This document shows, in pieces, positions 4,696-8,867 of a DNA stretch of 64,000 nucleotides (positions are counted from its first letter, which is position 1; each line of letters starts with the position of its first letter). Position numbers and translations under genes: made by a program. Source of the DNA: Paraconexibacter antarcticus. GTDB taxonomy: Bacteria > Actinomycetota > Thermoleophilia > Solirubrobacterales > Solirubrobacteraceae. Under the pieces are notes generated by a model. That model was not told where the DNA came from and made no database searches. It saw only the letters and a list, made by a program, of their open reading frames with translations. The stretch lies in NCBI RefSeq assembly GCF_024220175.1, contig NZ_CP098502.1, positions 2,170,001 through 2,234,000 of the forward strand, in the 5' to 3' direction.

Positions 4696-5630
4696 CGGGC
4701 GCGGAGGCGGACGCTGCGCCGGGCCGTGGCCGGGGCGCCGCCCACGGGGGTGGCGGTGACGGAGACGCCGAGGGTCAGGCGGCCGCGGCGGGTCAGCGCG
4801 CGGCGGGTCGCCGCGCCGAGCGGGAGGCGCACCGTGAACGTCGCAGGGGCGACGTCGGCCCGGAGCGCCTGGGCGATCGTGCGCCCGGCCTCGTCGCGGA
4901 CCCGCACGCGGAGGGCGGCGAGGGGGCGGCGGACGGTGACGCGGACCCGGACGGCGGGCGCGCCGGGGGCCGGTGCGGCGCTGACGGCTCCGAGCAGGGC
5001 CCGGACACGCGCCTTCGCGTCCGCGACGACGGGGCCCGGGGTGGTCGCCGGTCCGCTGCCGGAGCCCGCGCCCGCGTTGCCGGTCCCCGTCGTCGTGCCG
5101 CCGGCGCCGCTGCCACCGCCGCCACCGCCGCCGCCGGCGCCACCGGGCGGGGTCGCCGGAGCGGGCGGCACGACGGCGTAGGAGATCGCGTACGTCGGGT
5201 CGTCACCCCCCGAGTCCATCGCGACGTAGAAGCGCCCGGGCTCCGGGAAGGTCCAGTCGACGGTCTCCTCCGGCGCGTCGTCGGTCACGGGGCCGGTGCC
5301 GGCGCCGCTGCCCTCGCCGCCGAGCTGGGTGCCGGAGGCGTCGAGGAGCGTCGCGTACACCGGGCAGCCGGTGAGGTCCGGCGACAGGCACGGGCTGACG
5401 GTGTTGCGCACGTCGAAGCGGAGCGTCTGCCCGGGCGACGTGACGTCGAACGCGAGGTAGTCGACGTCGGTCTCGCTCACGAAGGCGCCCTCGTAGGTCA
5501 TCCCGGGGACGAGCGGACCGTAGGCGGTCGCGATGCTGTCGTCCGGGCCGCCGAGGTCCGCCGCGGCGGGCGCGGCGCCCAGCAGGGCGAATGCCGCGGA
5601 GAGGCCCAGCAGCCGCCGGGCTGCGCTCAT
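4692..5630 (-). CDS. Secreted protein with Gly-rich linker, function unknown
   Basis: A 312-residue protein starting at ATG 5628-5630, chosen because it gives a clean signal peptide (MSAARRLLGLSAAFALLGAAPAAA) and an ATGA overlap with the upstream small membrane gene. The mature N-terminal part (~25-165) looks like a pre-peptidase/PPC-like beta domain: DVDYLAFDVTSPGQTLRFDV and PEPGRFYVAMDSG. A Gly/Ser/Thr-rich linker follows (~175-215), then a C-terminal beta domain (VRVRVTVRRPLAALRVRV). The in-frame extension to 5996 lacks a signal peptide and is unlikely to be used. It is translationally coupled to the GH-GT2 gene, so a surface role linked to the glycan is possible. Confidence 0.72.
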   Translation of the reverse strand: MSAARRLLGLSAAFALLGAAPAAADLGGPDDSIATAYGPLVPGMTYEGAFVSETDVDYLAFDVTSPGQTLRFDVRNTVSPCLSPDLTGCPVYATLLDASGTQLGGEGSGAGTGPVTDDAPEETVDWTFPEPGRFYVAMDSGGDDPTYAISYAVVPPAPATPPGGAGGGGGGGGSGAGGTTTGTGNAGAGSGSGPATTPGPVVADAKARVRALLGAVSAAPAPGAPAVRVRVTVRRPLAALRVRVRDEAGRTIAQALRADVAPATFTVRLPLGAATRRALTRRGRLTLGVSVTATPVGGAPATARRSVRLRAR

Positions 5631-5899
5631 GCGGCGCGGCTGCCCGCCGGCACCGCTCGCGGCCCGTCGGGCCGGCCGCGGAAGGCGCCGGGCCCGGCGA
5701 CGACCCGTCCGGGCTGCTGGACCTGGCGCGCCGGCCGTCGGTGCGTGCGCACGGTCCGCGTGACGGTGCTCAGCGTCCCGAGGAGCAGGGCGGCGAGGCC
5801 GCCGAGGACGACGAGCGGCATGAGCGCGAGCACGGCGAACCCCCAGATCAAGGGGCCGGCGAGCTGGTTCGGGGACGTAGGGCGCGGAAGTCGGGGCAT
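5627..5899 (-). CDS. Small single-pass membrane protein
   Basis: A 90-residue protein with one strong hydrophobic segment (about residues 14-42, GPLIWGFAVLALMPLVVLGG onward), followed by a basic tail rich in Arg. The stop TGA at 5627-5629 overlaps the next ATG as ATGA, which is the main reason to believe the gene is real and not a shadow. It would head the envelope operon that runs leftwards to base 1. No family is recognised. Confidence 0.6.
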   Translation of the reverse strand: MPRLPRPTSPNQLAGPLIWGFAVLALMPLVVLGGLAALLLGTLSTVTRTVRTHRRPARQVQQPGRVVAGPGAFRGRPDGPRAVPAGSRAA

Positions 5900-6144
5900 G
5901 TACGGGAGCGGCGGTCGGAAGCGTGTCTCGGAGGTCAGAACGCACCGCGGGGGCAGAGGTTGGCCGGTCGCCCGGGCGTGGAACTTCCGGCGTCATGGTG
6001 CGGGGACAACGCCCCGGCGCGGCACAAGGTCAGGCGGTAGTTGCGGCGACGTGCCCGGTCGCCGGCGGGCGGTGGGCGATGTCCCGTCCCCGGCGTGCCC
6101 TGCCGCCCGCCCGGGCGCCGCCGGACGTGCCAGACTCCTCGCCC
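5900..6144. other. Divergent intergenic region between the envelope operon and the CHAD gene
   Basis: About 245 bases separate the leftward envelope operon from the rightward CYTH-CHAD gene, so both promoters must lie here. I see no convincing -35/-10 pair or inverted repeat. An in-frame ATG at 6079 could extend the CHAD gene by 22 residues. Confidence 0.4.
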
Positions 6145-7674
6145 GTGTCCGCGCCGTCCGAGAGCTACGAGGTGACCGGGCCGCTCGATCCGGCCGCCGT
6201 CGCCGAGGCGCTGGCACCGGCCTTCGGGCTGCACGCCGAGGCGCCGGTCCGCCACGCGCGCACGTACCTCGACACGTTCGACGGGCGCCTGCACGGGCCT
6301 GGTCTCACGCTCGTGCACGAGGGCGGTGAGCTCGTCCTCGCCGACACGGCGCAACAGACCGTGGCGCGCGAGCGGTGGCCGCGCGTGCCGAAGCTCCTCC
6401 TCGTGACCGACCTGCCCGCCGGGCCGCTCGCCGACGCGCTCGCCGGCCCCGTCGAGATGCGGGCGCTGCAGCCGCTCGTGCGCCTGTCGAGCCGCGAGCA
6501 GCTCCTGCGGGTCCTCGACGGCGAGGAGAAGACGGTCGTCCGCCTGCGCATCGAGACGCCGGTCCTCGAGGGCGGGGCGCGCCTGCCGACCCACCTGCAC
6601 GTCGTCCCCGTCCGCGGCTACGAGAAGCAGGCGGCGAAGGTGCTCAGGCGCCTGGAGGCCGCGCTCGACCTGACGCCCGCCGCGGGGAGCATCGCCGACG
6701 ACGCGGTCCGCGCGGCCGGCGGGACACCCGGCGGCGTCTCGTCGAGCCCGAAGGTGCCGCTCGCCGCCGACGACACCGCGGCCGTCGCGGCCGCGCGGGT
6801 GTCCTCGCGACTGCTCGAGGTCATCGAGGCGAACCTCCCGGGGACGCTCGCCGACCTCGACACCGAGTACCTCCACGACTTCCGCGTCGCCGTCCGCCGC
6901 ACGCGCTCGCTCCAGCGCGAGCTGCGCGGGGCGTTCCCGGGCGACGCGCTGCGCGAGGCCCGCGCCCGCTTCAAGCGGCTGCAGGCGGTGACGGGGGACA
7001 CGCGTGACCTCGACGTCTACCTCCTCGACTTCGAGGACTTCGCCGCCCATCTCCCGGAGGCCCGGCGGCCTGACCTCGAGCCGCTGCGTCGGCTCCTGCG
7101 CCGCCGGCGCGCGGCCGCGCTGCGCCGCATGCGCCGCGAGCTCCGGACCGAGGAGACGGCCGCGACCCTCGCCGACTGGCGGACGCTGCTCGCCGCGATG
7201 ACCGCCGGGGAGGCGGGGGGCCCCGACGCCGACGTCCCGCTCCTCACCATCGCCTCGGCGCGGATCCGCACCGTCCACCGCCAGATGGTCAAGGCCGGTT
7301 CGGCGATCGGCGACGACACGCCGGCCGAGGCGCTCCACGACCTGCGCAAGAAGGGCAAGGAGCTGCGCTACCTGCTCGAGTTCTTCGCCCCGCTGTACCC
7401 GGCCGTGGTCATCAAGCCGCTCGTCTCGAGCCTGAAGGCGCTGCAGGACACGCTCGGCCGCTTCCAGGACCGCGAGGTCCAGGCCGAGCTCGTCGCGTCG
7501 CTCGCCGCCGACGTGCACAAGATGGACGACGCGACGAGCGCGCTCATGGCGATGGGCCTGCTCGTCGAGGGGCTGCACGAGCAGCAGCGCGCCGCCCGCG
7601 ACGAGTTCGCGACCCGCTTCGCCGCGTTCGCCGCCCCCGGGCAGGGCGCGATCGTGAAGGAGACGTTCGCGTGA
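6145..7674 (+). CDS. CHAD-domain protein with degenerate CYTH-like N-terminal domain
   Basis: A 509-residue protein if GTG 6145 is the start (ATG 6079 is an alternative). Residues ~1-185 resemble a CYTH tunnel domain (YEVTGPL near the start, TYLDTFDGRL, LRIETPVL) but lack the EXEXK metal/phosphate motif, so catalysis is doubtful. Residues ~205-490 are a CHAD helical domain with conserved basic/His positions: YLHDFRVAVRRTRSLQREL, ARFKRLQAVTGDTRDLDVYL and ALHDLRKKGKELRYLLEFF. CHAD domains bind polyphosphate and often mark polyP granules. The stop overlaps the ParA-like gene by four bases, and a true CYTH enzyme follows. Confidence 0.85.
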   Translation: MSAPSESYEVTGPLDPAAVAEALAPAFGLHAEAPVRHARTYLDTFDGRLHGPGLTLVHEGGELVLADTAQQTVARERWPRVPKLLLVTDLPAGPLADALAGPVEMRALQPLVRLSSREQLLRVLDGEEKTVVRLRIETPVLEGGARLPTHLHVVPVRGYEKQAAKVLRRLEAALDLTPAAGSIADDAVRAAGGTPGGVSSSPKVPLAADDTAAVAAARVSSRLLEVIEANLPGTLADLDTEYLHDFRVAVRRTRSLQRELRGAFPGDALREARARFKRLQAVTGDTRDLDVYLLDFEDFAAHLPEARRPDLEPLRRLLRRRRAAALRRMRRELRTEETAATLADWRTLLAAMTAGEAGGPDADVPLLTIASARIRTVHRQMVKAGSAIGDDTPAEALHDLRKKGKELRYLLEFFAPLYPAVVIKPLVSSLKALQDTLGRFQDREVQAELVASLAADVHKMDDATSALMAMGLLVEGLHEQQRAARDEFATRFAAFAAPGQGAIVKETFA

Positions 7675-8408
7675 CCCGCGTCCTCGCGACGTACAACATC
7701 AAGGGCGGGGTGGGGAAGACGTCCGCCGCCGTGAACCTCGCCTACCTCGCCGCGCGCGAGGGGGCGCGGACGCTCCTCTGGGACCTCGACCCGCAGGGCG
7801 CGAGCACGTACCTCTTCCGCGTGAAGCCGAAGATCAAGGGCGGCGGGGACCGGCTCGTCCGCGGCAAGACCGACGCCGACAGCCAGATCAAGGGCACCGA
7901 CCACGAGCGGTTGGACCTCCTCCCGGCGGACTTCAGCTACCGGCACATGGACCTCGCGCTCGACGCGGCGAAGCGTCCCACCACCCGGCTGGACCGGGTC
8001 CTGGAACCGCTGAAGCCGGACTACGACTTCATCTTCCTCGACTGCCCGCCCTCGATCTCGCTCGTCTCCGAGAGCGTCTTCGAGGCGGCCGACGCGCTGC
8101 TCGTCCCGATGATCCCCGCGACGCTCTCCTCGCGGACGTTCGCGCAGCTGCGCGACGTCGTCGGGGACACGAGCCAGGTGCTCGCCTTCTTCTCGATGGT
8201 GGACGGCCGCAAGCGGCTGCACCGCGAGGTCATGGCCGAGCTCTCGGCGGCGTACCCGGAGATCCTCACCGCGGCGATCCCGGCGGCGGCGGACGTCGAG
8301 CGCATGGGCGTCGAGCGGACGGTCGTCGAGGAGGTCGCGGCACGCGGCCGAGCCGCGGCGGCCTACCGCGAGCTGTGGGCCGAGGTCCGCGCCCGCCTGC
8401 GCCCCTGA
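7671..8408 (+). CDS. ParA/MinD-family ATPase, orphan
   Basis: A 245-residue deviant Walker ATPase. The P-loop is KGGVGKTS at residues ~11-18 with the signature first Lys, switch I is DLDPQGAST and Walker B is FIFLDCPPS. These proteins dimerise on ATP and position cargo on the nucleoid or membrane. No parB gene lies nearby. The GTG start overlaps the CHAD stop (GTGA), so the pair is cotranslated, suggesting a role in placing CHAD-bound polyphosphate bodies (inference). Its TGA abuts the stop of the opposing CYTH gene, forming the palindrome TGATCA. Confidence 0.88.
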   Translation: MTRVLATYNIKGGVGKTSAAVNLAYLAAREGARTLLWDLDPQGASTYLFRVKPKIKGGGDRLVRGKTDADSQIKGTDHERLDLLPADFSYRHMDLALDAAKRPTTRLDRVLEPLKPDYDFIFLDCPPSISLVSESVFEAADALLVPMIPATLSSRTFAQLRDVVGDTSQVLAFFSMVDGRKRLHREVMAELSAAYPEILTAAIPAAADVERMGVERTVVEEVAARGRAAAAYRELWAEVRARLRP

Positions 8409-8867
8409 TCAGGGCCGGCCGTCGGTCGCGAGCGTCTGGTTCGCGTAGCGCCGGTCCCCGGTGAGCTCCGGCCCGAGCCACGCCGGGGGGACGAACGCCG
8501 CGCTCGCCGCCTCGTCGGCGAACTCGACCTCCGCCGTCATCAGGCCGTCGAGGGCCCCGGCGTAGACGTCGAGCTCGAGGACGAGCCCGCCGTCGAGGAC
8601 GAGCTCGTGACGGCGCTTCTCCACGCGCCGGCCCTCCGTGAGCGGCCAGAGCTCGGCGAAGCGCGCGGCGTCGACGTCGAGCTCGACCTCCGTACGCGCG
8701 AGGCCATGACCGCCCTTGATCGTCAGCACGTGGCGGCCGCCCTTCTCGCGGACGCGCACCTCGACCGCGTCGTCGATCGCGACGTACCCCTGCCGGACGT
8801 CCTTCGCCGGGGCGCTCGCGAGGTCGTCCGGCGCGGCCGTGACGAGGAACTTCCGCTCGATCTCCAT
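8409..8867 (-). CDS. CYTH-domain triphosphatase
   Basis: A 152-residue protein starting at ATG 8865-8867, so that it begins MEIERKFLV; the EXEXK-type motif (EIERK) at the extreme N-terminus is the hallmark of catalytic CYTH enzymes. Further tunnel residues are visible: VRVREKGG, LTIKGG, RTEVELDV, KRRHELV, LELDVYAG and AEVEF. CYTH enzymes hydrolyse inorganic triphosphate or related triphosphorylated substrates with metal ions. It lies end to end with the CHAD-ParA pair on the opposite strand, which reinforces a polyphosphate theme. The four-residue upstream extension (MNAA) is less likely to be used. Confidence 0.9.
   Translation of the reverse strand: MEIERKFLVTAAPDDLASAPAKDVRQGYVAIDDAVEVRVREKGGRHVLTIKGGHGLARTEVELDVDAARFAELWPLTEGRRVEKRRHELVLDGGLVLELDVYAGALDGLMTAEVEFADEAASAAFVPPAWLGPELTGDRRYANQTLATDGRP

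Follow-up and report, generated by a model that had tools for sequence, protein, structure and literature searches.

Why should an ATPase of the ParA family be encoded hand in hand with a protein predicted to grip polyphosphate? The question is posed by a 64,000-nucleotide stretch of the Paraconexibacter antarcticus genome (hereafter the window), which covers 2.170-2.234 Mb of a high-GC genome of 5.14 Mb in a single contig. Within it, a gene for a CHAD protein (6145-7674, + strand; GTG start, 509 residues; Pfam CHAD, E 9e-54) runs into a gene for a ParA-type ATPase (7671-8408, + strand; GTG start, 245 residues; Pfam AAA_31, E 5.8e-32), the stop codon of the first and the start codon of the second being contained in four common bases, GTGA, at 7671-7674 (+). 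A gene for a stand-alone CYTH enzyme (8409-8867, - strand; Pfam CYTH, E 1.8e-6) is convergent with them, its stop codon abutting that of the ATPase. NCBIfam has no model that reaches its cut-off for the CHAD, ParA or CYTH protein. A first-pass annotation of this DNA had rightly described the overlap and the end-to-end arrangement, and had proposed that the three genes form a module for positioning polyphosphate. Our analysis indicates that CHAD and ParA almost certainly form a functional unit and that polyphosphate is very probably its target. We favor, with less assurance, the hypothesis that the pair is a dedicated two-part system which places and partitions polyphosphate granules.

The pair is held together over long evolutionary distances. 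The nearest named relatives belong to the Solirubrobacterales. Among 151 genomes surveyed in the order, 20 carry a close homologue of the ParA gene (61-76% identity; own gene counted), and a CHAD homologue adjoins it in all 18 in which the contig is intact, the other two being cut by contig ends. The 80 best ParA loci overall (51-78% identity), which as best matches are a biased sample, span the Actinomycetota, the Dormibacterota and the Gamma-, Beta- and Alphaproteobacteria. CHAD lies directly upstream of ParA in 57 of these 80 loci, always first and on the same strand, and 38 of the 57 linked pairs have the four-base overlap. Culturable carriers include Methylotuvimicrobium buryatense 5G (L073), whose CHAD gene begins the pair some 40 bases ahead of ParA, and Sedimenticola selenatireducens (L118), in which the two genes overlap. 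The first-pass annotation had thought the coupling unusual; it proved instead to be deeply conserved, and conservation in related genomes, on which that annotation had staked its idea, came out strongly in its favor. Sixteen genomes, mostly of methanotrophs, have no CHAD gene at the ParA locus, and 15 of them still carry one: in 14 it encodes a protein of the same type, 500-530 residues long, at a site away from ParA, and in the remaining one (L146) it stands beside a second ParA copy.

A less biased view comes from even draws per phylum, comprising 299 genomes of Pseudomonadota and 296 of Actinomycetota. Of the Pseudomonadota genomes, 49 of the 57 that have this ParA also have CHAD, against 104 of the 242 that lack it (Fisher p 2.5e-9); for the Actinomycetota the figures are 10 of 10 against 114 of 286 (p 1.3e-4). 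Both tests assume an independence that the genomes do not have. Seven of the ten ParA genes in the actinomycetotal draw are adjacent to CHAD.

What does the CHAD protein contribute? It is the product of the only CHAD gene in the genome. Its translation start was taken at GTG 6145; an ATG at 6079, which would add 22 Arg-rich residues to the N-terminus, was set aside because the starts of relatives match the GTG. Pfam places the CHAD domain (PF05235) at residues 222-450, with 183 bits against a cut-off of 25.6, and a family profile extends the match with the Chlorobium tepidum protein CtCHAD (3e0s/6qv7; E about 1e-66) over 300 residues, so that the domain of the long type occupies approximately residues 208-509 (6766-7671, +). 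YgiF was absent from the matches to this profile at a threshold of 0.01. Modeling with AlphaFold2 from 56 relatives gave a structure of high confidence along its full length (mean predicted local distance difference test score, pLDDT, 95.8; predicted template modeling score, pTM, 0.91). Its C-terminal 300 residues superpose on the CtCHAD-polyphosphate complex 6qva, the best Foldseek match (E 5e-15, TMt 0.91), and contain the two four-helix bundles that mark the long, CtCHAD-type domain. In CtCHAD, polyphosphate binding is weakened by mutating H253, R256, R260, R296, R418 and Y419 (PMC6537752). The alignment equates these residues with H244, R247, R251, R287, R408 and Y409 of the window protein (encoded within 6874-7371, +), and all six are invariant in 56 of 56 ParA-linked CHAD proteins. 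On the strength of these kept contact residues, the CHAD protein is predicted to be a polyphosphate binder.

The N-terminal part of the same protein (approximately residues 1-190; 6145-6714, +) has no Pfam CYTH match. In the model it is a beta-rich domain, and Foldseek matches it with triphosphate-tunnel structures of the ThTPase/TTM type at E of about 2e-5. The EXEXK metal motif is missing both from this domain and from the N-termini of the relatives inspected. Of the other residues, K129 and G158 are kept among relatives, and R106, R133 and Y159 nearly always. Because EXEXK is absent, model and sequence together describe a CYTH/TTM fold that has lost its metal motif and appears to be inactivated, which agrees with what the first-pass annotation had said of this domain. 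For the same reason, the adenylyl cyclase role proposed for the CYTH-CHAD protein of Acidithiobacillus is unlikely here.

The motifs of the ATPase are intact, including the deviant Walker A sequence KGGVGKT and DLDPQG, and the signature lysine K11, the P-loop lysine K16, the catalytic D40 and the Walker B D124 are invariant across 80 sequences of the subfamily. Among proteins of solved structure, Soj/ParA proteins come nearest to it in both sequence and fold; McdA ranks lower, and BcsQ and FleN are further down the list of structural matches. In a FastTree phylogeny the branch between the subfamily and Soj measures about 1.9 substitutions per site, with low support (0.49) at the root split. 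A basic loop after DLDPQ (RVKPKIKGGGDRLVRGK..., 7818-7895, +; consensus FRIKPKVKGG) is the hallmark of the 80 sequences, in which R50 and G58 are invariant and P53, G57 and K74 nearly so, and the loop RVKPKIKGGGDRLVRGK is not conserved in Soj alignments. Judged by its sequence, the window ParA belongs to a distinct, CHAD-associated subfamily. The loop, whose residues 56-66 have a pLDDT below 50 in the monomer model, is a candidate contact surface. At the position of the Soj DxR motif, R180/K181 are nearly invariant. The genome has its own Soj beside the main ParB at 5.134 Mb, about 3 Mb away and 31% identical to the window ParA, and the nearest ParB_N matches are at least 1.9 Mb from the window ParA, the strongest of them adjoining Soj. 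The window ParA is therefore a separate paralogue rather than the chromosome segregation ATPase, an orphan without ParB as had been noted at first pass.

Genes for handling polyphosphate gather around the pair. A ppk1 gene lies within a few kb of it in four loci (L134, L077, L125, L141), and SixA-like phosphatase genes were seen by eye beside CHAD or ParA in L131, L134, several of L147-L156, and L160. The P. antarcticus genome has its ppk1 away from the window, so the host can make polyphosphate. The stand-alone CYTH protein of the window matches the NeuTTM structures 2fbl/3typ (phmmer, E 1.8e-39); its EIERK motif is intact, and its Y28 and K51 align with the Tyr28/Lys52 catalytic dyad of NeuTTM, a specific tripolyphosphatase (PMC3440374). 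By this alignment it is probably an inorganic tripolyphosphatase, a catalytic enzyme as the first-pass annotation had it. Its place in the module is another matter. A tblastn search of the 80 best ParA loci returned no homologue of the gene, for which reason we reject it as a core part and treat it as accessory. A NeuTTM-like CYTH gene does recur beside the pair in other lineages, at least three of them. It follows ParA in L015/L051, with 56% identity to the window gene, as well as in L165 and on plasmids of Paracoccus. In other words, the three-gene module reduces to a CHAD-ParA pair with a loosely attached CYTH gene. On the Paracoccus plasmids the order is CHAD-ParA-CYTH-NUDIX (L172, 4296-7648; L174, 3285-6650), as it is in L165, and the NUDIX protein of the cassette resembles yeast Ddp1 (E 8.5e-11), a Nudix enzyme that acts on polyphosphate (PMC8064635). 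No ParB gene is listed in the displayed stretch of these plasmids. Their cassette also holds a small protein resembling ribbon-helix-helix proteins (L172, L174).

Because a ParA-type ATPase is here genetically tied to a protein that would grip a single polymer, a cargo-positioning pair is the simplest reading. We hypothesize that the CHAD domain would use its conserved basic pore to coat or grip the granule, and would thereby serve as cargo adaptor in the role that ParB has for plasmids and McdB for carboxysomes. A ParA dimer with bound ATP would attach to the nucleoid, and contact with a CHAD-coated granule would stimulate ATP hydrolysis and release ParA locally. Granules might then follow, or space themselves along, the resulting ParA gradient, and each daughter cell would receive a share of them. 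The dead CYTH-fold domain probably serves in binding or sensing, its ligand being perhaps ParA or short polyphosphate, and the NeuTTM-like enzyme, where present, may clear tripolyphosphate left by polyphosphate breakdown. The earlier suggestion that the pair places polyphosphate granules thus fares well as regards a conserved unit directed at polyphosphate, to which the contact residues and the neighboring genes both point, while positioning itself is the best single explanation that we can offer.

Several observations weigh against this hypothesis. We infer physical interaction, nucleoid binding, ATPase activation and positioning from genes and models. The second DNA-binding arginine region of Soj (IPRN) is replaced in the subfamily, so nucleoid binding is uncertain. 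Among the 56 relatives, the CHAD proteins do not have the conserved, basic and disordered N-terminal tail of ParB proteins, and a basic C-terminal tail (net +3 or more) occurs in only 25 of them; with no conserved basic activating tail, activation of the ATPase would need another surface. Distribution is a further difficulty. Only about 4 of the 57 ParA genes in the Pseudomonadota draw are adjacent to CHAD (G268, G282, G306, G322), the others being more divergent and scattered, and 8 of the 57 ParA-bearing genomes have no CHAD match. We accordingly reject the notion of a constant proteobacterial pair, as CHAD is not linked to the majority of the more divergent ParA genes. Within the genus the pair is patchy, as three genomes (G027, G103, G141) have no close homologue of either CHAD or ParA. 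Lastly, CHAD is common in genomes without this ParA, and positioning by this ParA therefore cannot be general.

The main rival is that ParA is a regulatory switch of polyphosphate metabolism, binding CHAD, and perhaps PPK1, CYTH or NUDIX, so as to make synthesis or breakdown at the surface of the granule respond to ATP. Some relatives in the MinD/ParA family, such as BcsQ and FleN, act as regulators and not as positioners. That these two appear among the lower structural matches, that the neighbors (ppk1, SixA, NeuTTM-like CYTH and Ddp1-like NUDIX) are metabolic, and that a ParB-like activating tail is not conserved all suit such a switch. However, Soj/ParA and McdA are nearer than BcsQ and FleN in both fold and motifs, the partner is a predicted polyphosphate binder and not an enzyme, and no neighboring enzyme gene accompanies the ParA gene with anything like the constancy of CHAD. 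We consider the switch unlikely, but the most serious of the competing explanations.

Less probable still, in our judgment, is a passive tether, in which ATP-bound ParA on the DNA and CHAD on the polyphosphate simply hold granules at the nucleoid, with no ATP-driven gradient. There is precedent in AlgP, PhaM, PhaF and PhaH, which position polyphosphate or polyhydroxybutyrate (PHB) granules as nucleoid tethers whose ATP dependence is not established (PMC13052382), but the ATPase motifs, with the catalytic D40 among them, are invariant in all 80 sequences, and a pure tether would have no use for them. That this is an ordinary plasmid or chromosome partition ParA standing beside CHAD by chance, as its naming in the Acidithiobacillus papers (PMC10892726, PMC6416229) and its few plasmid-borne copies might suggest, is very improbable and we reject it, since adjacency and co-occurrence across phyla exclude chance, the genome has a separate Soj-ParB, just 11 among 72,556 plasmid records hold a relative, and in Paracoccus it is the complete CHAD-ParA-CYTH-NUDIX set that the plasmids carry. 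Phage records gave a single ParA match, at 31% identity.

The proposed granule-positioning pair resembles established systems in part. Like McdAB, and also ParABS and PomXYZ, it comprises a ParA-type ATPase with a deviant Walker A motif and the Soj/McdA fold that is encoded with a putative cargo-binding protein. It differs from all three in that the cargo protein is a predicted CHAD polyphosphate binder and not McdB, ParB or PomXY, and in that a conserved, basic activating tail is not seen; unlike in ParABS, no ParB gene adjoins the ATPase. With CtCHAD and the phosins it has in common the long CHAD domain and the same polyphosphate-contact residues. By its numbering (207-522), the CHAD domain of CtCHAD likewise comes after some 200 N-terminal residues (PMC6537752). 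E. coli YgiF also joins a CYTH fold to CHAD, but its CYTH domain is catalytic and its CHAD short (PMC3440374, PMC6537752), whereas the window protein lacks EXEXK and has a long CHAD domain. In Pseudomonas aeruginosa, AlgP affects the spacing of polyphosphate granules and a link to the nucleoid has been proposed (PMC9239181); it is a histone H1-like protein with no ATPase, unlike the window pair.

The same two types of gene have been noticed before. By its published description, a conserved folD-ppk-parA-CHAD cluster of Acidithiobacillus contains both, together with ppk1, and has been read in the context of adenylyl cyclase (cAMP) and polyphosphate or of copper resistance, with no proposal of positioning (PMC6416229, PMC10892726). 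A 2025 review lists AlgP as the only polyphosphate positioning protein, its ATP dependence unknown there, knows no ATP-driven system for positioning polyphosphate, and states that the proteins placing the granules of Caulobacter have not been identified (PMC13052382). A study of cells with multiple ParA/MinD proteins mentions neither CHAD nor polyphosphate (PMC10241942), and deletion of CHAD in Ralstonia gave no apparent phenotype (PMC6537752). We found nothing in the open-access literature, to which our search was confined (subscription journals and preprints were not covered), that ties ParA to CHAD function; a description elsewhere is possible.

Some further features of these loci deserve mention. 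When ParA stands without CHAD in methanotrophs, it often directly precedes a gene that by eye resembles glycogen phosphorylase (L072, L075, L080, L083, L088, L109), and other ParA genes without CHAD precede a D-aminoacyl-tRNA deacylase-like gene (L076, L078, L099) or an MgtE-type transporter-like gene (L095, L097, L132). L161-L168, except L165, form a divergent proteobacterial branch of the ParA subfamily that is not linked to CHAD, and two of its members lie beside a truA-like gene. A ParA gene 76% identical to that of the window opens a short contig (L033/L062, G091) of a genome assigned to another family of the order, with the CHAD side cut off, and may represent a binning error or a transfer. 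In the window itself, a small open reading frame resembling a membrane protein (5627-5899, - strand) is divergent from the CHAD gene.

Taken at its broadest, the hypothesis describes a widespread new system of the ParA/MinD family whose cargo would be the polyphosphate granule, spaced and inherited in an ATP-dependent manner by way of a CHAD adaptor whose triphosphate-tunnel domain is dead, and mobile, plasmids included, as a CHAD-ParA-CYTH-NUDIX cassette; we regard this wider proposition as evenly balanced. A conserved pair of ATPase and adaptor with known polyphosphate-contact residues makes the placement and inheritance of the granules experimentally tractable. If the hypothesis is true, it would provide a candidate function both for an unnamed ParA subfamily and for CHAD proteins.

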